DNA of 43,767 bases from a virus. The position numbers and the translations under genes are program-made. The notes under the pieces were generated by a model. It had not been told where the DNA came from. It did no database searches and worked only from the letters and a program-made list of their open reading frames with translations. Below are positions 4,660 through 43,767 of the stretch, piece by piece. How positions within the stretch are numbered: the first letter of the stretch is position 1; every line of letters begins with the position of its first letter. Location: positions 1 to 43,767 of IMG/VR virus record IMGVR_UViG_3300044635_000932; one strand, written 5' to 3'.

Positions 4660-5859
4660 TTAGGCGTGGAATACCGGGAGAATGCCCAGGCTCAGCGCGG
4701 AACTGTACTTGCGCTGCCACACGGACTGAACATAGGCAGGGGTGCCAGTGACCAGGCCATCAGTAGCGGCAGTAAGCGCCACTTGAACAGCGTTCTCGAT
4801 AACAGCCTTGTAAGCAGCGTCGTCAGCAAACACGTTCTCGCTACCAGCCCACTTGTAACCGACCGGATGAGCGATGTAACCCCAACGATGCCAAATCGCA
4901 GTAGAACCACCACCCTTATAGGCAGCAGCATTGCGCTGGATTTCGACGGGATCAGGCACGTTCAGTGCATTGAAGTTGATCGCGCCAGGAAGAACGATGA
5001 AGCTCGTCTTGGTACCGACCACATCAACGCCAGGACCAGTGTTCATCTTGGTGAACTCGGCAGATGCCATGCTCTGAGTAGCACGAGTCAAGATAAGACG
5101 GAACTTACCCTGGAAGATCGTGTTGAACTCGATGCCAGCTTCGCTGACCTTATCCTGATCCACCAGATTGGCAGAACGGAGCGAGGCCATGACAGCGGGG
5201 CTGACGACCAGATAAGCATACGACGGCTCGTAATCCTTCCAAGCCATACCCATGGCAGTCAGGAAGCCCTCAGCGCGGGCAGCACCTTGAGCAGTAGCCG
5301 AAGCAGCAATGACCGGCAGCACGTTGCCCAGATCGACGTAGAAACCATACTTCTTGTCGGTCGGGTCGTTGTCAAACGTCTGTCCACCCAGACCGTTAGA
5401 GCCTTGGGCCTTGCCAGCACCGTTCAGCAACTCAGCAATAGCGACACCCTTGCAGACTGCAAGAATGGCGTTATGCTCGTCTTGAGCACGCGTCTCAGCG
5501 AAGTCACGACCGAACTTGGCCAGACCATCTTTCTGAGTAACAACTTGCTTCATGTTGACCTTCTCAGCACCTGCAGTCCGGACAGACTTGATGTATGTCA
5601 GGAATTCAGTGTCGGAGGTCGTCGCTGTACCAGCAGTACTGTCAGTAAGCGAGGCCAGGTTAATGGTCGGGGTAAGCGGCTTTTCCCAACGCAGTTGACC
5701 GATGAAGGTCTCAGTTTCAGTATCGATTTGCGAATTCGCCACGGTGATGCCGGTGTTGACCAGCTTCTTCGCGTTCGTATAAGCTTCATCGTAGTACGCA
5801 CCAATAGCCGATTGCAGAACGGTATCAGTTGCGCCAGTTACACTCTTAGTTGCACTCAT
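4660..5859 (-). CDS. Major capsid protein
   Basis: A 399-residue Ala-rich protein, moderately acidic, directly downstream of a scaffold-like gene, as capsid genes are. Size fits an HK97-fold shell protein. Residues 170-240 read FYVDLGNVLPVIAASATAQG then WKDYEPSYAYLVVSPAVMAS, typical of capsid A-domain segments, and the C-terminal third holds FIVLPGAINFNALNVPDPVE. The start has AAGGAAATATTTATG. The sequence family was not identified; the call rests on gene order, size and composition. A 421-codon antisense frame across it is a shadow. Confidence 0.85.
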   Translation of the reverse strand: MSATKSVTGATDTVLQSAIGAYYDEAYTNAKKLVNTGITVANSQIDTETETFIGQLRWEKPLTPTINLASLTDSTAGTATTSDTEFLTYIKSVRTAGAEKVNMKQVVTQKDGLAKFGRDFAETRAQDEHNAILAVCKGVAIAELLNGAGKAQGSNGLGGQTFDNDPTDKKYGFYVDLGNVLPVIAASATAQGAARAEGFLTAMGMAWKDYEPSYAYLVVSPAVMASLRSANLVDQDKVSEAGIEFNTIFQGKFRLILTRATQSMASAEFTKMNTGPGVDVVGTKTSFIVLPGAINFNALNVPDPVEIQRNAAAYKGGGSTAIWHRWGYIAHPVGYKWAGSENVFADDAAYKAVIENAVQVALTAATDGLVTGTPAYVQSVWQRKYSSALSLGILPVFHA

Positions 5860-5877: not shown

Positions 5878-6597
5878 TTATCGTTGCGGCAGTCTGCCTT
5901 CAGCAGCCATTCGGATCACTTCGTCTTGTGATTTGGCGAATAGCGATGTGTCGCCAGAGCCACCATCATTCCCACCCTTGCCTTGTCCCGAACCGGAACC
6001 TCCGCCAGAGCTAGCTTTTGTTTTGAACAAGAAAGATTGATTGTCATCAGCAACATATGCAGCAATGAAGTCTTTGATAGTGACACCGCTCTTGTGTACC
6101 CATTCGCCCTTATCGTTGCGAACAAGACCTTCAGCGATTTCCTTAAAAGCCATCTCAGCTGCGCGATCGTTCTTGAAATCCAGTCCTTGTAGTGCTGCAC
6201 GCACATTCGCATCCCGAGTAAGCTCAGTATTGCGACGTTCCAATTCTGCATTCTTTGCATCCAGTTCCTTGCGCTTCACTTCAGCATCGGCAAGACGAGC
6301 CTCGTAGACCTCACGGTGTTTACCTTCGGCCTCAAGTCGCTTGATTTCAGCTTCACGTTCAGCGGCTTCTTTCTCCTTGAGCTTCTTCTCAGCAGCGTCT
6401 CGGATTTCGTAAGCCTTGTTGAGGTTATCTTTGAGGCCCTTGATCTGAGCTTCGATTCCCTCTTGAACTAGACGAGCGATCTTCTGTTCTTCTGTCTCAC
6501 CCTTAAGAGCTTCCAGCCGATCCAATTCCGCTTGTTCCAGCGCAATCTCTTCGGTAGTCTTAGGAGTGCCATCTTCTTTATTCGGATTTATTGCCAT
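5878..6597 (-). CDS. Capsid scaffold-like protein
   Basis: A 239-residue highly charged protein. Residues 10-130 are an Ala/Glu/Lys heptad-like coiled coil; the C-terminal 60 residues include a Gly/Ser linker (SSGGGSGSGQGKGGNDGGSG) and end LFAKSQDEVIRMAAEGRLPQ-R. This layout, acidic coiled coil followed by a flexible linker and a short basic C-terminal capsid-binding tip, and the position before the capsid gene, are typical of phage scaffolding proteins. The ATG at 6597 has AGGAG ten bases upstream; an in-frame GTG at 6618 is less likely. Confidence 0.8.
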   Translation of the reverse strand: MAINPNKEDGTPKTTEEIALEQAELDRLEALKGETEEQKIARLVQEGIEAQIKGLKDNLNKAYEIRDAAEKKLKEKEAAEREAEIKRLEAEGKHREVYEARLADAEVKRKELDAKNAELERRNTELTRDANVRAALQGLDFKNDRAAEMAFKEIAEGLVRNDKGEWVHKSGVTIKDFIAAYVADDNQSFLFKTKASSGGGSGSGQGKGGNDGGSGDTSLFAKSQDEVIRMAAEGRLPQR

Positions 6598-6634
6598 GAT
6601 TTCAAAGCTCCTGGGCACAGCCCATTTAAAATGT

Positions 6635-6653
6635 TAATGAGTACAACTCATTA
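6635..6653 (-). promoter_or_regulatory. Perfect hairpin with TGT loop (promoter-like, tentative)
   Basis: TAATGAGT-TGT-ACTCATTA on the minus strand is an 8 bp perfect stem with a 3-nt loop, overlapping the stop codon of the giant gene and preceding the scaffold gene. It is AT-rich and lacks a U-run, so it is a poor intrinsic terminator. N4 virion RNA polymerase recognises hairpins with 3-nt loops and a central purine, so a promoter role is conceivable; RNase III processing is an alternative. Confidence 0.35.
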
Positions 6654-9600
6654 TCCAATTCCGTACCAGTAATGATTACCCTTGAAGTCGTGCGTTATCT
6701 TTACTAAGACATCGCTCTTCTTCAGAATATCACTCTCTTGTAACTTCTTACCACCGACAACAGATCGACCAGCGATAGGTATCAATCCAATGTCAATAGC
6801 TTCGTTCAGATACTTGTCATAGAGTTCCTTAGACAAGCCTCTATCACGCATTTCGTTAAGTGTGTCTAGGATAACGTTCTTATCCAGAACATTCGCATAG
6901 ATTTCCCTAAGTGCATCCCTTGACTTCAATAGATCGGCAGCGTTGGCCATGAACGCGTCATGCACCGTAGCAGTAGGTATGTTGTTCTTACGTCCCCATA
7001 GATGATACTGCTTCACAAGTGTGGCGTCATTAGCATGGTTTCCGTTAACGGCAAAGGCTGTTCTAGCTTTGTTTACATCAGCAATGTCCCTCATGGTGTC
7101 TGTTTTGTTTCTGAACTCTTCCCACCACGTAGGGTCAGTCTTCTGTTTGATCATGAGGATGTTGGTCACCCAATCACCATTTGCATCACGATACACTAAT
7201 CGCTCTTCGAACGCCTGTGTGAAATTCTGTTCAATAACCTTGCCATCAAAATTAACCCAAGGGATGTTCGTCCATTGTTTCGGCATCTTGTTCGGATACA
7301 GTACATCGAAGCCTCCGTAGAGTGTCTCTTCGATCGCACCTAACTTGAACTTTACCTTTCCAAGTGTAGTGCCAGTACGTCTGTCCAATGGAGCTTTAAC
7401 ACCGTAAATGACTTCAGATAGTAAGTCTCCTGGTTTATACCAAGGGACACGCTTAAGGAATTTCTCGCTGATTGATTCACTGGCTTTTGTACCCAACAAC
7501 TCTGCCACACGCGGTGGTAGTTTGTCGCCAGCCTTGTAAGCACCGAAAAGCATCTGCCGCAGGATCTTAGCTTCGTCGAAGGACGCTTCATTCGGCTTGG
7601 CACTAGTGAGGAAGTCCTCAGCTAGTCTACCAAAGTAACGTGTGAAGTCCTTAAGAATAGGAACCTGTACAGCAAGATTTTCGCTCATGATCTCAGCAAT
7701 AAGCTTGAAATCATTAGGTGTTACAACTTTATCGTATGATCGAGATAGCTTCTCGACGAACTCGTAGGTCTTCGGTTCTAGGAACCATAAGTCCTCTAAG
7801 AGGTCATCACCAGGATCTACACCTCGGTTGAAGATATCCTTGACATCTTGTCTCAAAGCCTTTAGCTCAGATGCAGTGTCAGGATCGAATCTCTCAAAGC
7901 GCGCCGCTCTAGCAGCGATCTCATCGAGTACTTTGTCACGCTCAGATGCTTTCACAACGAGCAGACCTTCATTCTTTCCCAATGCCTTGGCCAGCTTTGT
8001 TTCCACATTCATAGCACCAGTGCGTTGACCTGCACCATAGAATGTGACCATGTTTTGTGCCTTACTTGCCTTCCGAAGATCCTTCTCAGTCAAACCAAGC
8101 TTCTGGTTCAACTTAATGAATCGAGGATCGTTGAAAGTAAGTGCAGCGATTTCGTCATACAACCGCTTCTTCTGATTCGTTGCGAGTACATTAGACAATT
8201 CAGCAAGCTGCTTATTCTTCGTAGTTAACGCGATGATCTGCGCACCAGAAGAACTGGCATCTTGCTCTAATGCGACTGCAATATCGTAACCCTTGAGCTT
8301 TGACAGATCAGAGTAGTCACCATCTAGGAAGCGATCTATCTTAGCCATTTCGAGCGACAGACGCAGTGCCTTACCTAAATCCTCGCCATCTATCTCTTGG
8401 ACGAACTTCGAATCCAGGACAGCGCGGATGTCAGCAGGCTTACCACGTAGCATGTGATAACCTATCTTGACCATTTCTGGTCTATGTTTCTTAGCTATCT
8501 CTTGCCTACCTAGTACAGACAGTGCGTTGTACTTTCCTTCTAGATTATCAGAGAGGCCACCAATAAAGCCACCAATCTGGTCCTGAAGGTTCAGGTATCC
8601 TTGCTCATTAAACTTTTTCGATACAGCACTATTAAGGAACGGCCTAAAGCTTTCACCCGCCTGTGGGCCGATGAAGCCTCTCTCATAGATACGTGCACGA
8701 TGGTCGAGAAAAGGATGATTGCTAAAAGAACTATCCTTAGCCCTAAGCCATGACATTGCTTTGAATCTCTCATACGCGTCTCCACGGCCACTCATATACT
8801 CGCGATAGTGATTCACCTCGCTGTAGTACTTAGCCCGTCCCTTGTCGTCAGTAAAGTGAAGTAACTTGTCAATGAAGTCGTGAAAGTCAGGATCAACCTT
8901 GTATTTCGTTTGAGCTGCCCAATTTAGTGCAGACGTCATGTCCTTGTCGATTAGCTTCTCAGGGAAGTCCTTGAATGACGACTCAGAGATTATAGGGATG
9001 CGAGTATCGTAGTACCCGAATAGTCCTTCATCTGTGAAGTACGTCTTGTAACCCTCTCTGATTCGCAACCTGTTGTGCTCTGTAGTTGCGCTCACACGCA
9101 GACCTACATCAACCTTACGAGTTAGCTTTGCGTATTCAAGAATACGAGGATCATGAACGACGACCACAACAGAATTAGTATCGTAAGCAGGACCGAAATA
9201 CTTCCCAAAATTGCGGCTTCGCATTCGTCTCTTTTGGACACCACGCGTTTCAAGCTCGTAGAAACCCTTAGCCTTAGCGTTGTCCAGTAATTTGTTACCA
9301 AGGAGCCACCATTCTTTCCTATTGCCTCGATAGTTTGCTGCATTGTATAAATCACGACCTAGCGCAACAGCGAGTTGGTCTCTATCAGGGCTATCTGCCA
9401 TTGCTAATCTATTGGCAAATCGTAGGTAGAACTGGTCTAACTGATGGTCTCCATCTTCTTTCAATCGTGTTCTGATCTTGTAAGGAATCTTGTAGTCGAA
9501 GATGTTGCGCAGTTCTCTTGCGATCTTCGGTGCTACACTATCCTCCCACTTGTTCTTTGCCCTGATGTTAGCTATGAAGTTATCATGCAGGTCTTGTAGC

Positions 9601-11285
9601 TGCACCGGCCCTAGGACAGGATCGATGTACATGTCTTGTTTCAGCTTGAGAAGGAAATTCTGGTCACGACGTAGCTGTGTCTCGATGTAATCAGAAACGT
9701 TCATTATGTCGAACTTGATCTGACCATTGAGAACGGCCTTAAGATTCGTCCATGGCTCCTTATTATCACGGAAGCGTGTGAACACGATACGTAGGTTGTC
9801 AGTTATAACAGCTCGTTCGTTAGCACCTAGATGTCCATCTAGATCATCCACAAACTTCTTGATAAAATCCTTGTCAGCTCTCTTTAAGCTAACAGAGTCT
9901 TCGACTAACCTGAGGTTATTCTTTAAGACAGCCTGATTCGGTTGAAATATCCTGCTGTCATCATAACGTCCTGTTAATGGATTGAACAATAACTGTTCCT
10001 CTGTAGGAGGGCTGTTCAATACACGCGCCTTAGTAGCCTTCTTTGTGTGCAGCAGATTGCCTCGGTAGTTTGTCAATGACAGATTACCATCAAGGTCTTT
10101 GGCTTGCAGCATATAGTAGTTGCGTAATGCAGCCACCATATCAGGAGAGTCTATTAGCTCTTCAGGCCTAGCTGCGCCTAGCTTAAGACGGTCTAGCTGC
10201 TCTTTAGCAATGGCGAATTTCTTCGTATTACCAATACCGTAGCCATCATCTGTCATTCTACGTAGCTCATTGATGCCGACAGAATTACCAGCAGGTGTTG
10301 TAAACTTGTCTACGGTTAGTTGACCACTACGAAATAACTCTAGTCGAGTATTATCACCAAGATGCCTTAGCTGAACATCAGTAGGCTGCCTCTGTAACCA
10401 TTCGCTGTAACTCTCCTTTAACGGAGTTTGTCCATCATAGAAGGCGATCTGTTTCTGCGTCAACCCTTCCAAGTTACGTTTACGTATCTGTGCTACACCC
10501 TCGAGTTCACCAAGCTGGTCATACGACTTGGTTATTGGGATGGTAGTACTTCGGCAGTACCAGTGAGCAGGAGGAAGATGTGCAGTATCACTGATAGGAT
10601 ACACAGTACCGTCACGATGCTGACAGAGTGGCGTCGTACGAGAGTCCAGAACAGCGACATACTGCCAGCCAGTGAGAATCTTTTCATTTGCCTTGTACAC
10701 CTCATGATCTGTTTGTGAACGAACAGACGTAATAGCAGTACGGACGAGGCCAATAGATTGCTGCTTAGATATGGTGAACACATTACCATCCCTAACAGAC
10801 AATGCGATTGCTTTTTCATCTAGCCCCTCTGCGATACCACGTCGTATAAGTGATTCGAGACGTTTGCGCTCTGCAATGCTAACACTCGTCCAGCCACCCA
10901 TCAGTGTCACATCATTATACAATGGGCGTTTAAGCACAATGTCTTCTGAGATGCGATAATTAGGCTTGGCTGTACGCCAGATCTTACCCACCACATTATC
11001 CATCTTCTGGTATGTGTAGGATAACTGATCGTTAACCAAATCCATTAGCGACTTAGAGCTTGTATTGAAAGCGTTACCATACGTCTTGCGCAACTGTATG
11101 TCTATCTCTTCCCGCATCTTAGGCGTCATCTTCGCCTTGTTAGCGAGTATGATGTCAATAATGCGAACCTTGTGCCCGTCTATTATCGTGGTAACCTTAC
11201 CGGCAACACGCTCCTCATATAGACGTAACATAGCAGCGCGATCTACAAGCTTATCGTAGATGGCTGTGTTGGCATTAGTGCTCAT
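6651..11285 (-). CDS. Minor head protein (Mu gpF-like) fused to single-subunit RNA polymerase
   Basis: A 1544-residue two-part protein. Residues 140-250 are a Mu gpF/SPP1 gp7 minor head domain: GWQYVAVLDSRTTPLCQHRD, then LPPAHWYCRSTTIP, with paired Cys221/Cys244. From about 640 onward it resembles a T7/N4-type RNA polymerase: ALNWAAQTKYKVDP (786-799, like T7 QNTAW..N), DHRAR (861-865, T7 DWRGR), motif A EQDASSSGAQ with Asp1009, motif B R1071-K1075-M1079-Y1083-G1084 in exact RxxxKxxxMxxxYG spacing, and motif C VHDAF with Asp1443 preceded by HANDATLV. Motif B to C distance (360) exceeds T7 (173), implying an insertion. The ATG at 11285 follows AGAGGAGTTTC. It lies between portal and scaffold, so the product should enter the capsid near the portal and could transcribe ejected DNA. 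Family matches are seen by eye; virion packaging is inference. Confidence 0.88.
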   Translation of the reverse strand: MSTNANTAIYDKLVDRAAMLRLYEERVAGKVTTIIDGHKVRIIDIILANKAKMTPKMREEIDIQLRKTYGNAFNTSSKSLMDLVNDQLSYTYQKMDNVVGKIWRTAKPNYRISEDIVLKRPLYNDVTLMGGWTSVSIAERKRLESLIRRGIAEGLDEKAIALSVRDGNVFTISKQQSIGLVRTAITSVRSQTDHEVYKANEKILTGWQYVAVLDSRTTPLCQHRDGTVYPISDTAHLPPAHWYCRSTTIPITKSYDQLGELEGVAQIRKRNLEGLTQKQIAFYDGQTPLKESYSEWLQRQPTDVQLRHLGDNTRLELFRSGQLTVDKFTTPAGNSVGINELRRMTDDGYGIGNTKKFAIAKEQLDRLKLGAARPEELIDSPDMVAALRNYYMLQAKDLDGNLSLTNYRGNLLHTKKATKARVLNSPPTEEQLLFNPLTGRYDDSRIFQPNQAVLKNNLRLVEDSVSLKRADKDFIKKFVDDLDGHLGANERAVITDNLRIVFTRFRDNKEPWTNLKAVLNGQIKFDIMNVSDYIETQLRRDQNFLLKLKQDMYIDPVLGPVQLQDLHDNFIANIRAKNKWEDSVAPKIARELRNIFDYKIPYKIRTRLKEDGDHQLDQFYLRFANRLAMADSPDRDQLAVALGRDLYNAANYRGNRKEWWLLGNKLLDNAKAKGFYELETRGVQKRRMRSRNFGKYFGPAYDTNSVVVVVHDPRILEYAKLTRKVDVGLRVSATTEHNRLRIREGYKTYFTDEGLFGYYDTRIPIISESSFKDFPEKLIDKDMTSALNWAAQTKYKVDPDFHDFIDKLLHFTDDKGRAKYYSEVNHYREYMSGRGDAYERFKAMSWLRAKDSSFSNHPFLDHRARIYERGFIGPQAGESFRPFLNSAVSKKFNEQGYLNLQDQIGGFIGGLSDNLEGKYNALSVLGRQEIAKKHRPEMVKIGYHMLRGKPADIRAVLDSKFVQEIDGEDLGKALRLSLEMAKIDRFLDGDYSDLSKLKGYDIAVALEQDASSSGAQIIALTTKNKQLAELSNVLATNQKKRLYDEIAALTFNDPRFIKLNQKLGLTEKDLRKASKAQNMVTFYGAGQRTGAMNVETKLAKALGKNEGLLVVKASERDKVLDEIAARAARFERFDPDTASELKALRQDVKDIFNRGVDPGDDLLEDLWFLEPKTYEFVEKLSRSYDKVVTPNDFKLIAEIMSENLAVQVPILKDFTRYFGRLAEDFLTSAKPNEASFDEAKILRQMLFGAYKAGDKLPPRVAELLGTKASESISEKFLKRVPWYKPGDLLSEVIYGVKAPLDRRTGTTLGKVKFKLGAIEETLYGGFDVLYPNKMPKQWTNIPWVNFDGKVIEQNFTQAFEERLVYRDANGDWVTNILMIKQKTDPTWWEEFRNKTDTMRDIADVNKARTAFAVNGNHANDATLVKQYHLWGRKNNIPTATVHDAFMANAADLLKSRDALREIYANVLDKNVILDTLNEMRDRGLSKELYDKYLNEAIDIGLIPIAGRSVVGGKKLQESDILKKSDVLVKITHDFKGNHYWYGIG

Positions 11286-11351: not shown

Positions 11352-12926
11352 TTACTCTGCTTTACCGATTACGCCGTCTTCCAAGGGTTTAGTCGTGCCT
11401 TGTTTCGGCTCCTTTGGCATCAGGAAGTCATCAGCTGTAATCTCAACCTTAGCGTCTTCATCGTTGTAGTCAGGCGGAATAATGTCATTGTGCTTAAGGA
11501 TTTCCAACCACGTTGTACGCGGAATGAGGCCTTCCTTATACCATTCAGTAATGAGGCGTAGCCATGCATCACCAAGCGGTGCAGGATTGAAGTCAGCGCT
11601 AAGCGAGAAGTCGAATTCATTGGACTTAAACGCTGTACCATAACGCCAGTTCACCATAAAGCAAATAACATCAGCCATCACATTAGAGACCTTCGTGTTG
11701 AGCGTCCCTAATTGAGCAGCCTGAGCAGCATTGCGAATCTCTAATGCTACACCTGATTGAACATTCTCAGGTGACAACATACGTATTCCCATACGTGCCA
11801 TCTCTTCGATTCCGGATGCGATGGCGGCTTCCATGTCCTTAAGAGCATCAGTAGGTGTGTCAAGGATCGAGGCTGTATCACCTTGCATAAGGCGAATCCA
11901 GGAGCCTAGTCCACCGTCAACAATTGCTTGGAACGTCTCGTCGCTAACGTTAGTAGACAACACAGGTGTATACGTAGCAGCACCATACAGCAGATGGTTA
12001 CGACGACTAAGCTTGTTGTACAGATTGACTTCCTTATCAACCAGCGCCATGATGACAGGCTCGGTGACATCGATAGAGCCATTCAAAGGCCATGCTGGAA
12101 TGAAGTCCAGAGGCTTACCTGCCACAAGGAAATTAGCGATAGTCTCGACAAGCTCATACTTCTTGCCCTGACCTGTGCCTACCTTCGTCTGTCCTTGTGT
12201 AGTCTCAGTCTGTGTCGGAACACGATGCTGGAACTTACGTATCTGGTACTTTCCTTCTACGATCTCATGTACCCACAGAGTGTCAAGTATTTCAGCATGG
12301 AATTCGTTCTTCGAGAAGTCCTCTTCGTAGCCCTTCACAATCACCATAGAGAGCGATTGTGTGCCTTTGACGACGTCAGTTGATACCTTCCAATTGATGA
12401 CAGACTCAGCCTTCCACAAGATAGGGTAAGGCTTGTATGCGAGTTGTTCTTCCTTCGTGAGGTTATCAGCGTTAGGAACATTAGGGTAATCGACATATAC
12501 CCAAGCACGACTCGTCTGAATCTCTTCCCAAAGTGCCACATCAAGGAACGCAGAGAGTGGCGAAGAGTCTTGACCGAAGTCATCGAGTATCCATTGCTTA
12601 GCCTCTTCTGGAGCACCCTTAGGCATCTCCAGGTGTGGCTGCTTACGTAGCAATCCACCTACAACGAACTTCGAGAACTGAGAAACAATACCAGGTAACT
12701 CTGCTTCTGCCTTATAGAAGGCATACTGCTCAGGTGTCATGTTCGGTGAGAACGGGATGAGCATGTTCGAGTAAGTCAAAACGTCCAGGTAATTATCAGC
12801 AGCTTTAACGTACCTCTCGCCGCCACAAACAGCCCTGCTACGTTCCCATAACTCTTCAACACTCTCATATGCAGCGCAAGGCTCACCTACACCTTTCAGT
12901 GGTTGGGCGGTAGGTACGGTCGACAT
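11352..12926 (-). CDS. Portal protein
   Basis: A 524-residue protein of portal size and position (terminase, portal, minor head protein, scaffold, capsid). It has YLDVLTYSNMLIPFSPNMTP, LPGIVSQFSKFVVGGLLRKQ and GIEEMARMGIRMLSPENVQS followed by SGVALEIRNAAQAAQLGTLN, features of the DUF4055-type portal family. Portals form the dodecameric vertex through which DNA is packaged and ejected. The C-terminal 40 residues are polar and probably disordered. The start overlaps the previous gene's stop (TAATG). Confidence 0.88.
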   Translation of the reverse strand: MSTVPTAQPLKGVGEPCAAYESVEELWERSRAVCGGERYVKAADNYLDVLTYSNMLIPFSPNMTPEQYAFYKAEAELPGIVSQFSKFVVGGLLRKQPHLEMPKGAPEEAKQWILDDFGQDSSPLSAFLDVALWEEIQTSRAWVYVDYPNVPNADNLTKEEQLAYKPYPILWKAESVINWKVSTDVVKGTQSLSMVIVKGYEEDFSKNEFHAEILDTLWVHEIVEGKYQIRKFQHRVPTQTETTQGQTKVGTGQGKKYELVETIANFLVAGKPLDFIPAWPLNGSIDVTEPVIMALVDKEVNLYNKLSRRNHLLYGAATYTPVLSTNVSDETFQAIVDGGLGSWIRLMQGDTASILDTPTDALKDMEAAIASGIEEMARMGIRMLSPENVQSGVALEIRNAAQAAQLGTLNTKVSNVMADVICFMVNWRYGTAFKSNEFDFSLSADFNPAPLGDAWLRLITEWYKEGLIPRTTWLEILKHNDIIPPDYNDEDAKVEITADDFLMPKEPKQGTTKPLEDGVIGKAE

Positions 12927-13806: not shown

Positions 13807-14078
13807 TTCTTTGCCTTCTTTTTCGGGAACAACTTAGTACGCAGCCTCTTGATCGGGAAGGGTTCACCTGCCTTCTGACACGCCTTGATAAAAGGACGGG
13901 CTAAGTAGTTAGGCTGTCCCATTGACACAAGGATGTCCTCATGATAAAGCTCCTTGCCACGCAGCTTCACACGCTTGAAACGACGTGTACAACGAATGAC
14001 ATAATCAGGCGAGACAATGTATTCCACTGTCTTGTATTCCGGATGTGCCAATAGCACTTCCATAGGTTTGTTAATCAA
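13803..14078 (-). CDS. Small basic hypothetical protein
   Basis: A 91-residue protein rich in Lys and Arg, ending in a poly-basic tail (RLRTKLFPKKKAKK). The middle holds YHEDILVSMGQPNYLARPFI. No family recognised. The basic tail suggests nucleic acid contact. It overlaps both neighbours by four bases and sits directly downstream of the large terminase. Confidence 0.7.
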   Translation of the reverse strand: MINKPMEVLLAHPEYKTVEYIVSPDYVIRCTRRFKRVKLRGKELYHEDILVSMGQPNYLARPFIKACQKAGEPFPIKRLRTKLFPKKKAKK

Positions 14079-15409
14079 AATGCAAATCCTCTCGCAGATA
14101 CAATATTACCAGGGCGGACAGGGAATCGGAACTCAAAGAAGTAACGTATACCGTCCGAGAAATGTTCAACACCTTCTGACTTATCAATTGTTGCAGTATC
14201 AGGATTGTTATCTACCCAGACTGTCTTCTCTAGAGAGTCAATAACACCCTTACACGAAGGATGTACATATGCATTGATCTCGCCAGCGGCAGTCTTGAAG
14301 TGCTTATTAACAGCATTGACACTATCAACAATCTTAGGTGCAGCTTGATGTGCTAGTACAGTGAAACCGCAGCTACGCAGAATAGAGAAATCAGTAACTC
14401 CGACAGGGGCAGAAGTCTTGCGACTGTTACCTGAAGGGTCGGGATATATGATGACACGATGCCCTTTCTTTTTGTAGAGTTCTAGTAGTACGTCGCAGAA
14501 CGTTTGCGTATCAGGATGTCCCTTAAACTCACGCAAACAAAACGCCTTGTTGCCTCGTACAACCCATATGCTAGCAGCCATAATGCCAACGTTAAAGTCC
14601 AACGCGACATGTACATCTTCGTTCTCCTTCAAAGGCTCCATCTGGTCAGTCACGTGCTCTTTGCGCTTGAAGCAATAGAATATCCTATTACCTGAATCCT
14701 CGAATGATGCAAGGTATTCGCGATTAAAGAACAATGGATCGACGCGATGTCTAATACGCTCGACCTCCTCTGGGTCTAGTAGTGGTGACTGTGTGTAGTC
14801 AAAGTGATAGGACTTCCATAGCTTGTCACCCTCTTGGAAATTGTACATGTCATAGAGATAGTTATATCCCTTAGGTGTACCAATCGTCAGTGATCGTCCT
14901 GGGCTAGGGGCATTATAAATAGCAGCACGTTTAGGTGACCAGCGTGTAGAGATACAAGGCTCGATAACACTCTCCCATGCATCTTTAAAGCCAATACCTT
15001 TTGTCCATGAAGAAGGCTCATCATTCACAGCAAAGTAAAGCCCAGTACCCCGTAAGCGTTCTACTGCTTCAAAGGATATGAGCTTCAATTCGACATTACC
15101 TGGAAACCACAATCGGCCATCAGGCTTGCTGTGCTTAACAACATACTTCTCCATACCGAGTTGATACATCAGCAATGGGAAGTAAATGTCAGTTACCTGT
15201 GAATATGTAGGCGCAATGATTGCAACATTCTTATTGGGCACCCACTTAGGCAATGACATCAACTCCCATACAGCAGAGATAGATGCCACAGCTGCCTTAT
15301 GGGATTTACCCCATCCTCGACAAGCGACTGCTACAGCATGCCTGCACACCTTCCTGACGAATAAGTCCTCGTACACTAATGATTGTGTGGCATGCAGCTT
15401 AATCGCCAT
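14075..15409 (-). CDS. Terminase large subunit
   Basis: A 444-residue packaging motor. The ATPase half has a Walker A variant CRGWGKSHKAA (Lys35), IAPTYSQVTDIYFPLL, and a Walker B-like YFAVNDE near 125-131. A coupling-type GTPKGYNYLYDMY follows. The C-terminal RNase H-like nuclease shows VALDFNVGIMAASIWVV (first catalytic Asp) and HFSDGIRYFFE (last Asp). It cuts concatemers and pumps DNA through the portal. The start at 15409 is chosen for AGGAGGAGGACTT upstream; it overlaps the small subunit gene by 11 bases. Confidence 0.93.
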   Translation of the reverse strand: MAIKLHATQSLVYEDLFVRKVCRHAVAVACRGWGKSHKAAVASISAVWELMSLPKWVPNKNVAIIAPTYSQVTDIYFPLLMYQLGMEKYVVKHSKPDGRLWFPGNVELKLISFEAVERLRGTGLYFAVNDEPSSWTKGIGFKDAWESVIEPCISTRWSPKRAAIYNAPSPGRSLTIGTPKGYNYLYDMYNFQEGDKLWKSYHFDYTQSPLLDPEEVERIRHRVDPLFFNREYLASFEDSGNRIFYCFKRKEHVTDQMEPLKENEDVHVALDFNVGIMAASIWVVRGNKAFCLREFKGHPDTQTFCDVLLELYKKKGHRVIIYPDPSGNSRKTSAPVGVTDFSILRSCGFTVLAHQAAPKIVDSVNAVNKHFKTAAGEINAYVHPSCKGVIDSLEKTVWVDNNPDTATIDKSEGVEHFSDGIRYFFEFRFPVRPGNIVSARGFAF

Positions 15410-15908
15410 TTCGGAAGTCCTCCTCCTGTGCATACGTAGACTCGTTCAATGGGTCTATGATGAACATCTCACCTTCTTTAGTTGTCTCAATGATGAGCGG
15501 TGGCGGTGCTCCATCTTTCTCGGCCTCTTCCACTGGCACTTTAGCGTAACGGTAAGGTATCATGTCGGAGAGCACTTTGCTTGCGGTATTCATAAAGCCT
15601 TCAAGCGCCATAGAAGAATAACCGTTCTTCACCTGGCCCTCTAATTTATTCTCACGTGCGATGTCTTGTGCTTCTTGCAGTAACTCCTGCCTGTCAATCT
15701 GGCTACGCACTCGCCTGTACAGTGACACCATCTCTAGAAGGGGATCAAACCCGATCTTCTCCAGCTTACGAATACTCTCCTTACTATAGGCAAGCTTTGT
15801 GTGTCTACTGCCACTCTTGCTGCCACCCTTCCAAGCTGGTTGTTGTGGCTCTTCCATTGACACAGACAGAGCCAGACCAGCTGGTACTTTCTCCGGAATA
15901 TCGGACAT
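15399..15908 (-). CDS. Terminase small subunit (probable)
   Basis: A 169-residue protein upstream of and overlapping the large terminase. It has a basic N-terminal segment (WKGGSKSGSRHTKLAYSKES), a central helix LLEMVSLYRRVRSQIDRQEL, and an acidic C-terminus, the usual small-terminase layout of DNA-binding region, oligomerisation core and motor-contacting tail. The ATG at 15908 has GAAAGG eight bases upstream. The repeat array just upstream (16144-16236) is a possible recognition site. Identity rests mainly on position. Confidence 0.7.
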   Translation of the reverse strand: MSDIPEKVPAGLALSVSMEEPQQPAWKGGSKSGSRHTKLAYSKESIRKLEKIGFDPLLEMVSLYRRVRSQIDRQELLQEAQDIARENKLEGQVKNGYSSMALEGFMNTASKVLSDMIPYRYAKVPVEEAEKDGAPPPLIIETTKEGEMFIIDPLNESTYAQEEDFRNGD

Positions 15909-16280: not shown

Positions 16281-16296
16281 GGGATAAGTTAACAGT
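16281..16296 (-). promoter_or_regulatory. Promoter-like 16-mer, copy 1
   Basis: ACTGTTAACTTATCCC on the minus strand differs at one base from the 16-mer at 24151-24166. Both copies are intergenic and in the same orientation. This copy lies after the strong terminator at 16482-16521 and before the terminase/structural operon, where a late promoter for the phage RNA polymerase would be expected. Confidence 0.5.
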
Positions 16297-16378: not shown

Positions 16379-16404
16379 AAAAAAAAAAAAAAAAAAAAAA
16401 AAAA
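16379..16404 (-). repeat. Homopolymer tract (26 A on + strand) with adjacent GTAACCT motif
   Basis: Twenty-six A residues preceded on the plus strand by TTGTAACCTGAGCAC. The same arrangement recurs at 16435-16476 (TTGTAACCTCAC then 29 A), so the motif-plus-tract unit is duplicated. On the transcribed strand these are U-tracts downstream of a strong hairpin. Confidence 0.75.
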
Positions 16405-16447
16405 CTTTTAATATATTTGTTTCTTTGAAATTTTTTTGTAACCTCAC

Positions 16448-16479
<32 letters not shown>

Positions 16480-19192: not shown

Positions 19193-19267
19193 TGGTTCCC
19201 CGTGTCTGGATCAAACAGACGACCTATCGCTTACAAGGCGATTGCTCTATCACTGAGCTAACGGGGA
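19193..19267 (-). tRNA. tRNA-Thr (anticodon UGU)
   Basis: A 75-nt cloverleaf on the minus strand: acceptor TCCCCGT/ACGGGGA, D stem GCTC/GAGC, anticodon stem ATCGC/GCGAT with loop CTTGTAA (anticodon TGT), T stem GTCTG/CAGAC with loop TTTGATC, discriminator A and an encoded CCA end. Confidence 0.93.
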
Positions 19268-19275
19268 ATGGTGCC

Positions 19276-19360
19276 TGGTTCGAGGGACGGGGTTCCAACC
19301 CGCATGCCTTGCGGCGGCGCTGTTTAAGAACGCTGAGTCTAGCAATTTCTCCACCCTCGA
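19276..19360 (-). tRNA. tRNA-Leu (anticodon UAA)
   Basis: An 85-nt class II tRNA on the minus strand: acceptor TCGAGGG/CCCTCGA, D stem GAG/CTC, anticodon stem GCGTT/AGCGC with loop CTTAAAC (anticodon TAA), a long variable arm CGCCGCAAGGCAT, T stem GCGGG/CCCGT with loop TTGGAAC, and an encoded CCA. Confidence 0.92.
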
Positions 19361-19948: not shown

Positions 19949-20024
19949 TGGTGGCCCCTGTTGGACTCGAACCGACAACCAAAGGATTATGAGTCCTCTG
20001 CTCTAACCATTGAGCTAAAGGGCC
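19949..20024 (-). tRNA. tRNA with CAU anticodon, probably tRNA-Ile2
   Basis: A 76-nt cloverleaf: acceptor GGCCCTT/AGGGGCC, anticodon stem GAGGA/TCCTT with loop CTCATAA (anticodon CAT), T-loop TTCGAGT, encoded CCA. The acceptor and the GACTCATAATC anticodon arm closely resemble bacterial tRNA-Ile2, whose C34 becomes lysidine so that it reads AUA. Elongator Met is the alternative. Confidence 0.9.
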
Positions 20025-24150: not shown

Positions 24151-24166
24151 GGGTTAAGTTAACAGT
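24151..24166 (-). promoter_or_regulatory. Promoter-like 16-mer, copy 2
   Basis: ACTGTTAACTTAACCC on the minus strand, 15 of 16 bases identical to the copy at 16281-16296. It lies about 110 bases upstream of the ATG of the 195-residue gene, in non-coding sequence. Confidence 0.5.
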
Positions 24167-31787: not shown

Positions 31788-33704
31788 TTACCTTACAGGA
31801 CAAGCACCCGTTGCACACTCATCGCCACCTTCGAATTGAGCACTCGAAATGGAAGTGATGATTGTGGTACTTGCAACGAGTTCGTCGTACTGCTCCTTTG
31901 TGATAGCCTCGTATGGCGCTTGTGTGAAGCCATGCTCGTTATGTAGCAAGAACGATAACGACTTATGATTGTTACGATAGTGCTTCAGCAGATAGTCCTT
32001 GATCTCAGGCAGCTCTTCCTTCTTGTAGTAGATCGTGCAACTGACACTATTATCTGACCACTCAGTCTGTAAACGCTTGATCCACTTCAACTGCTCCATT
32101 GCTGTCATCTGATCTGCAAGGATAGTGCCCTCTGGGTACGCGAACGGGAACGTCACAACGACAGTGTTGTAGTCGTCCTTGCCGTCATAGTCCTTCTGGT
32201 ACTCCACAGGATAGCCATGCTTACGACAGACTTCCACCAACTCATGACCAGCTGCAATCCGAATACGGCGTACCATGTACTGTGAGTAGCCGGGATGAAC
32301 ACCTGGAGTAACACCAGGAAGCAACGACAATGTGCCGCTAGGCTTCACCGTAGTAAGCTTGATCGAGGTGTTCAAGTCTTTCAACTCTGAGTAGCGCTCA
32401 TCGTAGTTACGCAAGTGAATGTAGCCATCGCTCATCCAGCTAAGTTGCTCCTTGCTTGCCTGAAGGATACCTGTGAGGCCGATACCCATGCGCATGTTCT
32501 GGTGAACAATCTGATCTGTCTCCGGGTGGTGACACGGGATCAGCAATGAATGCTTGTTCACACGATACAACAACTCGATCAGATCGAAGAACTCTTCACG
32601 CGATGTGATGTTCGGCAGGAATATCTCCGCCAGACAACACGTCTCGTATGGAGCAAGAGACTGCTCCGCACAGGGATTGTATCCTTGAACCTCAGGATCA
32701 GGGTACTCATCCTCACCTAGACGTCCAACCTTGCGAGACAAACGCAGATTGACAAGTCCGTATGGCTCACGCGGATTGCCCTTATTATCAGGCGAGTAGG
32801 TATCCCAGAAGTACTCGTGCAGATCACGAATATCATCGCATGCAACCGAGTTGTTACTCATAGCACGCCATGCTGGAACGTTACCGATATCGAACCTCTT
32901 AGCAAGCAGGAACTCGATATCGTCAGGATCGCCAATTGCTATCTGTGCACTGCGTCGGACATTCCCTGCCACAATTACATGTCCGATGATGTTCATGATA
33001 TCGAGGCAGTCGATCGGCCTTACTTTCTTCCCAGAGCGTCGGAGTAGTACTTCCGATATTTTTCCAACTCCCCAAACGAGATCTTCTGGACCTGAAGCAA
33101 CACCTCCAAAGCCCTTAATCGGCGTTCCCTTACCACGCACAACTTGTGTGGAATACGTGAACGTCCCTTTCTCTTTCCTTTCCGAAAGGAAGGCGGCTTT
33201 GAGAGTTTTAGCAAGGAACCTAACCCAGCCTTCCCTACTATCAGGTATAATGAAGTCTGCTCCCCCGTGATCAATGCGTGTAGGCGCTCGAAACCACTCT
33301 CGGACTGCCGGTAGTTTGTCAACATGTTTGGCCTGTATATTGTAGCCCACACCTGAGCCAAGTGCGAGCATGTCCATCGTCCACGTGAAAGGAACGATCG
33401 GGTGATCCACGACCACGAATGCACAGTTCTGCAGACTGGCCAACCCAAAACGTTCAACTGTATGCGTTCCTAATTGCCATAGGAACCGTCCTGCAACGCT
33501 ACCCTTCAATTCCAACAGATACTGTCTAAGGCGCAATGATTCTGCTTCCGAGAAGTCACAGGTCAACTGATTGTTACAAGCATCGACGACACGATTGATT
33601 GTGTCTTCGAACTCCTCTGTTGGACCGCTGTTACCTTCCAGATGCCGACTGTACGTCCTCTTATATGTGAGATAGCCTACGCTACTCCAGGGAGTTTTAG
33701 ACAT
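31788..33704 (-). CDS. Adenosylcobalamin-dependent ribonucleotide reductase (class II, monomeric)
   Basis: A 638-residue protein with GRFLWQLGTHTVERFGLASL near the N-terminus, the active-site motif NPCAEQSLAPYETCCLAEI (about residues 340-360), TTVKPSGTLSLLPGVTPGVH and a C-terminal CATGACPVR with the CxxxC pair that is re-reduced by thioredoxin-type partners. This matches the monomeric Lactobacillus-type RTPR family. It makes deoxyribonucleotides from ribonucleoside triphosphates using B12 and no oxygen, so the host or medium must supply cobalamin. AAAGGAG precedes the ATG at 33704. Confidence 0.93.
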   Translation of the reverse strand: MSKTPWSSVGYLTYKRTYSRHLEGNSGPTEEFEDTINRVVDACNNQLTCDFSEAESLRLRQYLLELKGSVAGRFLWQLGTHTVERFGLASLQNCAFVVVDHPIVPFTWTMDMLALGSGVGYNIQAKHVDKLPAVREWFRAPTRIDHGGADFIIPDSREGWVRFLAKTLKAAFLSERKEKGTFTYSTQVVRGKGTPIKGFGGVASGPEDLVWGVGKISEVLLRRSGKKVRPIDCLDIMNIIGHVIVAGNVRRSAQIAIGDPDDIEFLLAKRFDIGNVPAWRAMSNNSVACDDIRDLHEYFWDTYSPDNKGNPREPYGLVNLRLSRKVGRLGEDEYPDPEVQGYNPCAEQSLAPYETCCLAEIFLPNITSREEFFDLIELLYRVNKHSLLIPCHHPETDQIVHQNMRMGIGLTGILQASKEQLSWMSDGYIHLRNYDERYSELKDLNTSIKLTTVKPSGTLSLLPGVTPGVHPGYSQYMVRRIRIAAGHELVEVCRKHGYPVEYQKDYDGKDDYNTVVVTFPFAYPEGTILADQMTAMEQLKWIKRLQTEWSDNSVSCTIYYKKEELPEIKDYLLKHYRNNHKSLSFLLHNEHGFTQAPYEAITKEQYDELVASTTIITSISSAQFEGGDECATGACPVR

Positions 33705-33714
33705 GTTGCTCCTT

Positions 33715-35355
33715 TTACATTGGTTGGAAGTCTTCTTCAGGTGAAGAACTTGCCGCAACCAGTCTACCGGTTTTATAGTTATAGTAAGCGCCTCTTACGG
33801 TACCAGTCAAACCCGTATGCCTACATTTGAGAACACGCATCTTGATCGTGTTACGCGTCATGTCATCGTCAGCCGTCATGTCTCTGGCAAAGCTAACAAT
33901 ATCGAAGGATATCTGCTTGATACTACCACTGCCCTTGATGTCATCAACACTTGGCAATTTGCCTTCCTCAAACGACTTTCCGCCTACTGGTGCTTTACGT
34001 AAGTGCGATATCAGTCCGATCCATGTTGGATGTCGCTTGACTATCCGTTGCATGGTATTCATGATCTTGTCTATCGCCTCGTTTCCAGACAGGCCCTCAG
34101 TTCCCTCAGACACAAGGATTGTTATATGGTCGATGAACAGGTACTTACAGCCCATCAGACACATATACTCTAGCTTCTCGGTGATGCTGTCATCATTCAT
34201 ACTGCCCTGGTGGTCTAGCAGCAGTACACGATCACTACCGAACACTGCATCGAAACCAACCTTCAGCTCAGGTAACGGTATCTCCTCATCTGCAGGGTTA
34301 CGTAGCAATTGCATGCCAGATAACTTCCTAGCTGTCTCAGCAGGTGCTTCTTCAAGGGATACAATCCCGATCTTAGCATCGGTGGTCTGCAGTATGTGCA
34401 GCATGATCTCTCGCTGCATGGTGCTCTTGCCTGCACCTGTGCCTGATATGAACAGAGAGATTTCACCCTCTCTCATACCCTTCAGTTTCTCATTGAGGCC
34501 GCCCAGACAATCTGGATACGGTACAGATGGCAATGAGTTGTACTCTTCAAGTGCAGCCCACAGCTTATCCTTGTCGATCACTCCAGATGGAATGAATCGT
34601 TCGGCATCCCATATCTTAGTGAGCAACTCATCAGGGCCATGCACCGTTAGCATCTTGTTGGCGTCTTTGACAGGCAACTTACAGACTTTTACCTTGTCGA
34701 CACCAATGATCTTGATGGCCTTAGCGAGTATCTCATTACCTGCCTCATCATTGTCCAGACACAGAACAACCTCGCCGAAACTGCGAAGCCACTCTCTATT
34801 TGCTAGGATTGCAACATCAGCGAATGCCTTAGCTGAGGGTAACGATACAACAGGATAAATCTTGCCGTACTTCTTCATGTATGCCTGTGCCACACTAAGT
34901 GTATCAACTTCACCCTCAGTGATTACGACACGCTTGCCACCACCCTGGAAACGCTCCTTACCGAACAGTGTCTTGCACTTACCGATCGAATAGAATGCCT
35001 TCGGTATCTTTCTAACCTTGTAGGCATCGCCCTCGTAAGGGTAGTAGTGTTCATTGATCTTGCCATCTGATCCGAAGCCCACGCGGACATCGTAGAACTC
35101 ACAGACAGCCTTATCAATACCTCGACCAATTGCCTGCACAGGAAACTGTTTCACCTCCTCGGCAGTAGTTGGCCCCTTGACGTAATTATTCTTGACAGGT
35201 TCTGGTGTCTCCTTTTCCACAACCGTAGTGCCTTTCTTGAAGTACTTCTGGCATACAAAACAGAATGAACTTCCATCCTCGTACACCTGGCGTCCGTCAC
35301 TGCTACTGCAATCATCATTGATACAAGGCTGATTAGCCTTGACGATTTTCCCCAT
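33715..35355 (-). CDS. T7 gp4-like primase-helicase
   Basis: A 546-residue protein. Residues 10-36 are a zinc ribbon (C..DDC ... CFVC), about 150-240 a TOPRIM primase core (VVITEGEVDTLSV and VVLCLDNDEAGNE), and 290 onward a RecA-like DnaB-family helicase with Walker A ISGTGAGKSTMQ (about 303-314), SLEEAPAETARKL and CKYLFIDHITILV (Walker B). It primes and unwinds at the replication fork with the adjacent polymerase. Size matches T7 gp4 (566). GGAG precedes the ATG at 35355. Confidence 0.94.
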   Translation of the reverse strand: MGKIVKANQPCINDDCSSSDGRQVYEDGSSFCFVCQKYFKKGTTVVEKETPEPVKNNYVKGPTTAEEVKQFPVQAIGRGIDKAVCEFYDVRVGFGSDGKINEHYYPYEGDAYKVRKIPKAFYSIGKCKTLFGKERFQGGGKRVVITEGEVDTLSVAQAYMKKYGKIYPVVSLPSAKAFADVAILANREWLRSFGEVVLCLDNDEAGNEILAKAIKIIGVDKVKVCKLPVKDANKMLTVHGPDELLTKIWDAERFIPSGVIDKDKLWAALEEYNSLPSVPYPDCLGGLNEKLKGMREGEISLFISGTGAGKSTMQREIMLHILQTTDAKIGIVSLEEAPAETARKLSGMQLLRNPADEEIPLPELKVGFDAVFGSDRVLLLDHQGSMNDDSITEKLEYMCLMGCKYLFIDHITILVSEGTEGLSGNEAIDKIMNTMQRIVKRHPTWIGLISHLRKAPVGGKSFEEGKLPSVDDIKGSGSIKQISFDIVSFARDMTADDDMTRNTIKMRVLKCRHTGLTGTVRGAYYNYKTGRLVAASSSPEEDFQPM

Positions 35356-36549: not shown

Positions 36550-37554
36550 TCACCCTATCTTGAGTGACATGCCGGTCGCCTTGACCGCTGTGGCTTGCGG
36601 AGTGGCTGCAGGCGCGGCGATTGGGGGCGCGGCGATACTCGCCCCATGGGGTGCACCCGCGTCCGGCAGCGTGGCAGTTTTGGCCGGTGCTGCCAATTTT
36701 TCCGCCTCTCCTTGTGCCGCAAGGGACTCCGAAATAGACGAATCCATGCTCAGGACTGTCTGAACAATCTCCCAAGACCTACAGCTGAAGAAGTCATCCT
36801 CGTGCTTCTTGAGATAGAGCATCGCCCCGTTACTCTGGAGATAGTTATACCAGTCTGTCGGGTAGAAGCTCATGTATTGCTCGACAACAACTTCCTGCAT
36901 GTCGAACTCCGTACTACAATCCACTAGCAGCTTCTCAGCCTTAACAGGGCCAACACCTGGAATTCCAGGTATGTTGTCAACGCCGTCGCCCTTGAGCAGC
37001 TGCTCATAGAAGAACCGTAATGCGAATTCCTCTGTGATCTCTTCTATCACATTGGTTTTCATATTGTAGTACAGCCCAGGGATACACTTCAGATCCTTGT
37101 CAATAGTGCAGATAACATAAGGCATCTCTGCAAGACGAGCTTGCTCCGCCCATATCCGCATCAAATCGTCGGCCTCCATATTGACAGCCTCTACTGCCAG
37201 ACCTTCGTCCACAGCCATTCCTCTTAGTACTGGTACGAAGAAGTTGGACTGCCGAGGATCCTTGTGCCGGTTCATCTTGTATTCTGGATACAACAGATTC
37301 CTAAAGTTATGCTGACTCTTTACAGCCATCAGGTGGTCTGTTGCAAATACACAATCGAGCAAGTCTTTAGCCTGACGCTGGAAATTATCCCACGACTGAC
37401 CCAAGTACTCTGCATCCTCTGCCATAGTGTATTCTTTGTTTGCCTTTACAAGATTGCCCTTGTCGTTGAGGATTAAGTTAACAGCCTCATCTGGCTTGAA
37501 CCTTGTCTTGCACGCGTGATAAGCGAGCACATCACCGTCTATTATTGCCAGCAT
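36550..37554 (-). CDS. 5'-3' exonuclease / flap nuclease with Ala/Pro-rich tail
   Basis: A 334-residue FEN-family protein starting MLAIIDGDVLAYHACKTRFK (metal-binding Asp), with NMEADDLMRIWAEQARL, VICTIDKDLKCIPGLYYN and a helix-hairpin-helix GDGVDNIPGIPGVGPVKAEK. It removes RNA primers or degrades host DNA. The last 60 residues are an Ala/Pro linker (AAPPIAAPAATPQATAVKAT) ending MSLKIG, unusual for the family; the tip may bind a partner. GGAGAGG precedes the ATG at 37554. Confidence 0.9.
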   Translation of the reverse strand: MLAIIDGDVLAYHACKTRFKPDEAVNLILNDKGNLVKANKEYTMAEDAEYLGQSWDNFQRQAKDLLDCVFATDHLMAVKSQHNFRNLLYPEYKMNRHKDPRQSNFFVPVLRGMAVDEGLAVEAVNMEADDLMRIWAEQARLAEMPYVICTIDKDLKCIPGLYYNMKTNVIEEITEEFALRFFYEQLLKGDGVDNIPGIPGVGPVKAEKLLVDCSTEFDMQEVVVEQYMSFYPTDWYNYLQSNGAMLYLKKHEDDFFSCRSWEIVQTVLSMDSSISESLAAQGEAEKLAAPAKTATLPDAGAPHGASIAAPPIAAPAATPQATAVKATGMSLKIG

Positions 37555-42814: not shown

Positions 42815-43767
42815 TTATGCAAAACAATACTCGCTATCGATAACAAGACTGATATCGAGGTTTCCACATGGAACTTCCTTCATGTCGATCTGGATGTCTT
42901 TCATTACAGAGAAGATCGGATTCTCTTTATACAACTCATGAAACGTTTCTCTCACAGCGACATACAGATCTGGCATATCAGCTGCTAGACAGCCGAAGCT
43001 GTCATGAATGGTTGTTATATCGAAAGGACACGCATCAATTGTCAGCATCAAGTGCGCAGCATCCAAGCTGTGAATGATGTTAGGCGCAGCTCCTTGTGCC
43101 TGTCTACGCTTACTATGCTTCGTCTCTTCGATGAAGCAGATGCTGACCTGATAGGTGTTGATGAAATGACCAGTGTTTAGTCGCTCACCTATCTGCGGAC
43201 CATACTGAATCCATTGCTTCTTGACAGTGCCCTCTACATAATGCTGTACAACTGGGAAGTCAGTTTTAGGTACAGTCCAGGCAAGAAACTCACCACGATC
43301 CTCTGCAGCCTTTCCTGCCTTCTCAAACAGCGATAACAGGCGCATCGGCTTAGCCATCGATGAACCACAGGAGTCAAACACAGTACGACCCATGTATGCT
43401 CCCCACTTATGCGTCATATGCATCAAAGCGGGGATACCATGTTTTCGTGCATCCTTGATCTGTTGCTCGCCAAGACCATATGATGTTCCACCATAAGGCA
43501 GAGTCATGACATTACGCTTCAGTATCTTCCTACGATGCTTCCTGTCGGTTATCTTACTCCAGAATATCGGAGAGGATATCTCGATGTACTCCTTGTTCTG
43601 TCGTTTGAAGCTCTGAAGCTTCTCGACTAGCTTCTTACGTAGCTCCACATCAGCAGCGTGTTCATGCACCGCACGCATCTGATCCACCAATTCCTCGATG
43701 ACCTCTTGACACTGCTGCTGCAGGTCTAAAGGAATCTCCATCAGGTTCTTATGTATTTCGTCCCATA
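42815..43767 (-). CDS. T7-like single-subunit RNA polymerase, C-terminal part (cut by window edge)
   Basis: The frame is open to the right edge (8 codons beyond an internal ATG at 43741). It carries motif B in RRKILKRNVMTLPYGGTSYG (RxxxKxxxMxxxYG), APNIIHSLDAAHLMLT (like T7 APNFVHSQDGSHL), motif C TTIHDSFG, and ends SEYCFA, like the FAFA foot of T7 RNA polymerase whose C-terminal carboxylate is functional. It probably transcribes middle and late genes. Motif A and the promoter-binding N-terminal part are outside the window. Confidence 0.95.
   Translation of the reverse strand, partial: WDEIHKNLMEIPLDLQQQCQEVIEELVDQMRAVHEHAADVELRKKLVEKLQSFKRQNKEYIEISSPIFWSKITDRKHRRKILKRNVMTLPYGGTSYGLGEQQIKDARKHGIPALMHMTHKWGAYMGRTVFDSCGSSMAKPMRLLSLFEKAGKAAEDRGEFLAWTVPKTDFPVVQHYVEGTVKKQWIQYGPQIGERLNTGHFINTYQVSICFIEETKHSKRRQAQGAAPNIIHSLDAAHLMLTIDACPFDITTIHDSFGCLAADMPDLYVAVRETFHELYKENPIFSVMKDIQIDMKEVPCGNLDISLVIDSEYCFA

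Follow-up and report, generated by a model that had tools for sequence, protein, structure and literature searches.

Can a gene for a phage head protein also encode an RNA polymerase (RNAP), and if so, where in the infection cycle would this enzyme work? The question is raised by a gene of a virus (IMG/VR record IMGVR_UViG_3300044635_000932), of which we analysed a stretch of 43,767 nucleotides that we call the window. The initial annotation, made from the letters alone, described a gpF-type minor head protein fused to a T7-type RNAP, but it did not give the strand. We find that the gene is located on the minus strand as one unbroken open frame of 1544 aa (11285..6651) and that the plus strand at 6651–11285 has stops throughout. 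The frame is open already from position 11342 (minus strand) down to 6651. Nevertheless, the ATG at 11285, which had also been the initial choice, is favoured as the start because in two relatives (L006 and L040) the homologous Met is closely preceded by an in-frame stop. Residue numbers are counted from this Met. A frame or assembly artefact is ruled out, since three separate contigs (L004, L005 and L012) carry the identical gene and 103 relatives have the fusion. The parts of the gene are listed below, where conservation counts refer to the relatives readable at each site (about 110).

6651..11285, minus strand: MuF-RNAP fusion gene, 1544 aa, start ATG at 11285, stop TAA at 6651
10251..11285, minus strand: minor-head module, residues 1–345, with conserved Cys244 (Pfam, phrog_241, TIGR01641; MuF-only relatives)
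10215..10250, minus strand: predicted flexible hinge, residues 346–357 (pLDDT <50 at 348–357)
9366..10250, minus strand: helical region between head module and polymerase core, residues 346–640 (AlphaFold2 model)
6654..9365, minus strand: single-subunit RNAP region, residues 641–1544 (PF00940, AlphaFold2, Foldseek)
8691..8705, minus strand: equivalent of DxxGR, D861-H-R-A-R865, in the column of T7 DWRGR (T7 D421xxGR425; D and R in 111/111)
8235..8267, minus strand: motif A, EQD1009ASSSGAQI, matching the T7 column (T7 D537; D in 112/112)
8034..8075, minus strand: motif B, R1071-KAS-K1075-AQN-M-VTF-Y1083-G (K in 110/110, Y in 115/115)
7014..7049, minus strand: NGNH1417ANDATLV, the T7 H784 region of ribose recognition, aligned to T7 NFVHSQDGS (H in 114/116)
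6951..6962, minus strand: motif C, H1442-D1443-A-F (T7 D812; D in 112/113)

The N-terminal part carries the gpF-type domain that had been placed at residues 140–250: Phage_Mu_F (PF04233) matches residues 143–249 (2.5e-13, 51 bits compared to a cut-off of 29.6) and TIGR01641 (phageSPP1_gp7, NCBIfam) matches residues 144–251 (1.3e-14, above the curated cut-off). In addition, residues 1–345 match head-morphogenesis families of PHROG (phrog_241 at 2e-61). No solved-structure match was found for the MuF half, and the assignment of this half thus rests on profiles. The protein has both marks of the MuF / SPP1 gp7 minor head proteins, that is, a domain match above the curated cut-off (PF04233 or TIGR01641) and a gene position directly after the portal gene. 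MuF proteins are virion components that are present in one or two copies at the portal (PMC5576092); SPP1 gp7 is targeted into the procapsid, also in one or two copies, by its strong binding to the portal (PMC6316719, PMC5576092). Some MuF proteins carry C-terminal payloads, and toxins fused to gp7-like proteins have been proposed to travel by the portal route of gp7 (PMC6316719, PMC5576092).

For the C-terminal part, PF00940 (RNA_pol) matches in two stretches (2e-9, 37.3 bits compared to a cut-off of 22), whereas a search of the same kind gave no match in any of 14 control genomes. MuF and RNA_pol are the only Pfam domains in the protein. An AlphaFold2 model of residues 346–1544, built from an alignment of 54 sequences, reached a mean pLDDT of 84.7 and a pTM of 0.80. 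When this model was compared to the PDB with Foldseek, 75 matches were found at E≤1e-3 and the best 50 are all single-subunit RNAPs, led by human POLRMT (4.9e-19), T7 RNAP (2.2e-18) and yeast mitochondrial RNAP (1.3e-17). The TM-scores to these structures are moderate (about 0.5 by target), thus the RNAP core is common whereas much of the protein is elaborated. Among predicted viral structures, the best match is A0A7S5FRK7 (1463 aa, TM 0.78), whose length equals that of the head protein of roseophage DSS3_VP1; stand-alone phage RNAPs and N4-type virion RNAPs follow.

The T7-type landmarks that had been read from the sequence were all found in order at their positions. In a free MAFFT alignment with T7, N4 RNAPI/II and the other RNAPs of these phages, DxxGR and motifs A, B and C fall into identical columns. 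The spacing R-xxx-K-xxx-M-xxx-YG of motif B holds from R1071 onward and corresponds to T7 R627/K631/M635/Y639/G640. The three catalytic residues Asp1009, Lys1075 and Asp1443 are kept among the relatives as given above; the single exception for Asp1443 sits at an insertion edge and the two for His1417 at an intron edge. Chance motif matches are ruled out by the fold, the column-exact alignment and the family-wide conservation. A DNA polymerase is ruled out as well, since the top fold matches are all RNAPs and the RNAP-type Tyr1083 and His1417 (T7 Y639 and H784) are kept. Between pairs of close relatives, dN/dS is 0.008–0.05 in the RNAP regions where it could be computed and about 0.03 in the core, which indicates strong purifying selection on the RNAP part. 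The sequence itself is very divergent from T7 (hhalign 2e-6), and a plain tblastn search with the RNAP domain of DSS3_VP1 retrieves T7-type RNAPs at 2e-5. The predicted right-hand RNAP fold together with the motifs places the domain in the T7-type superfamily. Profile, fold, conservation, selection and synteny thus support that the protein ends in an intact T7-family single-subunit RNAP, and they confirm that this RNAP and a gpF-type head module form one protein.

The gene contains large inserts in 16 relatives. All eight insert-bearing loci that were scanned (L013, L022, L033, L034, L037, L045, L047 and L050) contain Group I introns, with 21 matches to Rfam RF00028 in total, and the insert in EBPR siphovirus 1 (L053 23187–24036) is also listed with Group I introns. 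Most introns are only a few codons away from motif A, B or C: insertion sites are found after residue 1010 (motif A), at 1073–1085 (motif B) and 1416–1442 (on the side of motif C), as well as at 697 and 880. Motif B is sometimes flanked by two introns around a micro-exon, the gene of L047 has five introns, and several introns carry homing-endonuclease-like ORFs. Mobile introns favour catalytic motifs because the sequence there cannot change, and their siting supports the RNAP assignment. A different kind of insert is found in the head module of L034 (8715–9740), L047 (6716–7741) and L041, where an in-frame, stop-free insert of 342 aa, beginning with (C)YLEDTEILTENG, sits at Cys244 and looks like an intein. 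An HNH endonuclease gene in the window adjoins genes for tRNA-Thr, tRNA-Leu and tRNA-Met (19193–19360 and 19949–20024, minus strand).

The two modules are joined without interruption in 103/103 loci that span the junction. MuF-only relatives (L124/L125) align up to residue 346 only, adjoining the low-confidence hinge at 348–357. The neighbouring genes are those of a head module:

14075..15433, minus strand: terminase large subunit (phrog_2, 3.9e-29)
11352..12926, minus strand: portal gene, directly upstream of the fusion (phrog_145, 1.5e-52)
5878..6618, minus strand: head scaffolding gene, directly downstream of the fusion (phrog_206, 1.4e-14; found in 62/62 relatives)
4660..5859, minus strand: major head protein gene (phrog_247, 4.9e-19; found in 61/62 relatives)

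The order portal, MuF-RNAP, scaffold and capsid is kept among relatives, and the portal is present in 73 of the 76 relatives with enough upstream sequence. An overlapping contig of the same phage (67.9 kb) contains a separate tape measure gene of 2421 aa. This indicates a long tail, and the window phage is most likely a siphophage.

In IMG/VR, at least 533 contigs encode relatives of the fusion protein. Of 50,697 phage records, only those of EBPR siphovirus 1 and the roseophages DSS3_VP1 and DSS3_PM1 (Naomviridae) contain the RNAP half; these are homologous over the whole fusion, with identities of 56% (EBPR siphovirus 1, gp47+gp49) and 29% (roseophages). The genome collection yielded one full-length match, on a contig of 74,179 bases binned with a gammaproteobacterial MAG. 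The family consists mostly of uncultured long-tailed phages, with two cultured marine members. MuF-only relatives occur in Pelagibacter phage Kolga, a Pelagibacter MAG contig and a Campylobacteraceae MAG contig, where homologous scaffold and capsid genes follow an RNAP-free MuF protein. As had been suspected, the gene hides as an ordinary head gene: deposited homologues are named 'head protein', 'hypothetical protein' or, in DSS3_VP1, 'minor head protein-like protein', and the gene of EBPR siphovirus 1 is split in its annotation (gp47/gp49) by an HNH-bearing insert at motif B. The initial annotation knew of no described gpF-polymerase fusion, and we found no report of one in the open-licence literature searched. 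Virion-packaged RNAPs and MuF payload fusions are each known separately; the combination of MuF with a T7-type RNAP was not found in this literature, and its homologues are public but unrecognised.

The window contains another RNAP gene that had escaped the initial annotation:

42815..43765, minus strand: second, separate T7-type RNAP, truncated at the contig end to its C-terminal 316 aa (PF00940 1.7e-32, phrog_414 1.5e-48)

Full-length orthologues of this protein are found in relatives. A separate PF00940 protein is present in 16 of 20 examined relative records in addition to the window, where the remaining four are fragments, partial records or a contig of the same phage that ends just before the window's copy. 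Compared to T7 by hhalign, the second RNAP is canonical (1e-54) and the fused RNAP much more distant (2e-6). In a tree, the fused RNAPs form one deep clade whereas the other RNAPs of these phages group with T7; the fused clade is on a long branch, and its exact placement beside N4 RNAPI/II is not to be trusted. A recent duplication of the phage's own RNAP is thus unsupported, and by their sequences the two RNAPs look like they derive from different sources. In five records (G004, G005, G010, G011 and G015, the records of L040, L047, L080, L107 and L070), the separate RNAP gene is interrupted or has in-frame extra sequence, with PF00940 matches that are split or frames as long as 926 and 994 aa; these genes seem to have been invaded by introns or inteins.

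How does this pair of RNAPs compare to known systems? In N4 (Schitoviridae), the virion RNAP gp50 is also a single-subunit RNAP of the T7 superfamily within a larger virion protein, and the phage also encodes non-virion RNAP(s). However, N4 vRNAP is an ejection protein of 3500 aa from a podophage and has no MuF domain, and N4-like vRNAP modules are almost always fused to a metallopeptidase (Iyer 2017, PMC5512222), whereas MuF-RNAP has 1544 aa with MuF and RNA_pol only. Membership in the N4 vRNAP family by sequence was rejected (hhalign probability 0.4%, E 0.16). Thermus phage P23-45 is a siphophage in which gp96, an RNAP fused to a virion protein, is combined with an early-made non-virion RNAP, and both derive from an old duplication (PMC10770324). 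There, the tape measure protein carries a two-barrel (cellular-type) RNAP at its N-terminus; here, a portal-associated head protein carries a T7-type RNAP at its C-terminus, the tape measure is a separate gene, and the two RNAPs look differently sourced. MuF payload proteins share the MuF N-terminus, the gene position right after the portal and a C-terminal enzymatic payload (PMC5576092, PMC6316719), but their payloads are toxins or effectors, with no RNAP payload mentioned in the papers searched, whereas the RNAP payload looks like it belongs to the gene expression of the phage itself. In Pelagibacter phage Kolga EXVC016S and its relatives (L124, L125), homologous scaffold and capsid genes follow a homologous MuF gene, and Kolga also encodes a separate T7-type RNAP; the head protein lacks the RNAP module (Kolga gp59 has 633 aa) and is the unfused counterpart. 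T7 RNAP and the RNAPs of Autographiviridae share the fold, DxxGR, motifs A, B and C and the Y639/H784 equivalents with the fused RNAP, but they are stand-alone early proteins, and it is the phage's other RNAP that belongs to their clade. At the genome level, the window phage has the features of the virion-RNAP class, an RNAP fused to a virion protein and a second non-virion RNAP. Judged from the genes, the pair would correspond to the virion plus non-virion set of N4 and P23-45.

We further searched for promoters that might serve the two enzymes. Repeat and word scans gave no clear early promoter for the fused RNAP, and the exact-word scan picked up no more than a poly-T tract and, near 65,000 in the joined sequence, a spaced repeat. 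One late-promoter candidate is tentative:

16285..16295, minus strand: candidate core of a late promoter, CTGTTAACTTA, located upstream of the terminase/head cluster

This core also occurs exactly at 24155–24165 and 37474–37484 (both minus strand); five matches with at most one mismatch, compared to 0.64 expected, are weak evidence. The intergenic region before the terminase cluster contains two long poly-A/T tracts (about 16400–16455), which read as poly-T in the coding direction, and its length is not the same in the two assemblies of the window phage. DSS3_VP1 (MN602266.1) contains the T7-promoter-like AATAGGGTGCGTTAAAGARGGGG at about 12–14 sites, on the plus strand only (including 19203, 19238, 19327 and 29397), and three copies are located just upstream of the portal/MuF-RNAP operon; this element suits the T7-type second RNAP. 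GCATCTATAATGA occurs three times in DSS3_VP1, outside the head module in non-structural regions (35809, 36256 and 67793 in MN602266). It could serve the fused RNAP, or the host RNAP because its sites contain a perfect TATAAT.

In the DNA of DSS3_VP1, dU replaces dT (PMC12697855), which is a plausible reason for this phage to bring a polymerase. As a general cause, DNA modification was rejected: a dC-deaminase domain is found in only three records (DSS3_VP1, G008 and G006) and PurZ-like genes in two, and the window phage has neither, with PurZ searched for in both the window and the overlapping contig. The PurZ-like adenylosuccinate-synthetase genes, a mark of 2-aminoadenine genomes, are in G007 and G005 (the records of L086 and L047). 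Possibly, one phage group uses different routes of base substitution, PurZ-like and dC-deaminase. Among its nucleotide-related genes, the window encodes a dATP/dGTP diphosphohydrolase-type domain (PF18909; 40614–41354, minus strand) beside a family A DNA polymerase (38697–40598) and a B12-dependent (class II) ribonucleotide reductase (31788–33758, minus strand), where DSS3_VP1 is annotated with alpha and beta subunits.

Taken together, we propose that MuF-RNAP is a virion RNAP: the MuF part would dock at the portal, and the RNAP would accompany the DNA out of the head and transcribe early genes (estimated probability about 0.8). Packaging, ejection and enzyme activity are inferred; portal docking and delivery fit the way in which gp7/MuF proteins work, and they fit the two-RNAP gene set. 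During assembly, the MuF part would bind the portal and thereby hold one or two copies of the RNAP inside the head, where the DNA exits. When a cell is infected, the protein of about 175 kDa would exit with the first DNA and pass the long tail, by analogy with N4 and P23-45. It would then begin to transcribe early genes, including that of the second RNAP; the second RNAP in turn would transcribe middle and late genes including the portal/MuF-RNAP operon. Early transcription would thereby be independent of the host polymerase, which may be useful for DNA with substituted bases such as the dU-DNA of DSS3_VP1, and the pull exerted by transcription could also assist genome entry.

Other readings of the fusion have to be weighed against this proposal. 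The gene sits in the late head operon, so the RNAP might act in the producing cell only, where the fusion would tie late transcription or packaging to nascent procapsids with no delivery. Early needs could then be covered by the separate RNAP if it is made from a host promoter, such as the TATAAT-bearing GCATCTATAATGA in DSS3_VP1. We consider this unlikely, since one or two MuF copies at the portal (PMC5576092) are poorly placed for bulk late transcription and a canonical T7-type RNAP is already there for late genes. Unlikely, too, is the idea of a polyprotein that is cleaved, after which MuF would remain in the head while the released RNAP acts in the cytoplasm or is packaged separately. The hinge at the point where MuF-only relatives stop aligning would offer a place for such a cut; however, the modules are fused at every junction seen, a conserved cleavage site or head protease was not identified, and the tape measure RNAP of P23-45 is found at full length in virions (PMC10770324).

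The ejected RNAP might instead mainly prime replication or pull the genome in, with no defined role in early-gene expression. RNAP-driven genome entry is used by T7 and N4, which gives this option a precedent. It is also in line with the reduced infectivity of SPP1 virions without gp7 (PMC6316719). As a main function it appears improbable, as the strict two-RNAP set matches a cascade of transcription such as that of P23-45 and N4, yet such a role is not mutually exclusive with early transcription. Finally, the RNAP part might be a relic without catalysis that serves as a DNA-binding or structural plug; this would agree with its high divergence from known RNAPs but is very hard to reconcile with the conservation of all catalytic residues and the strong purifying selection on the RNAP regions.

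Beyond delivery as such, we lean towards the view that these siphophages have their own route to host-independent infection, in which an ancient, separate RNAP branch is held on the portal by a MuF tether, is ejected with the DNA and feeds a T7-type RNAP of different origin. If true, the MuF position would be a general dock for payloads, which may be toxins but also enzymes of the phage itself. The MuF fusion would add a packaging mode beside the ejection proteins of N4 type, the multisubunit RNAPs of jumbo phages, the RNAPs of crAss-like phages and the tape-measure fusions, and it would do so in siphophages known from hundreds of metagenomic contigs. The finding corrects annotations in which an RNAP is hidden behind 'minor head protein', and it predicts which phages can start an infection without the host RNAP. 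As the cultured dU-DNA phage DSS3_VP1 has a homologous protein, the proposal is directly testable, and the divergent enzyme may use unusual promoters or dU-containing templates.
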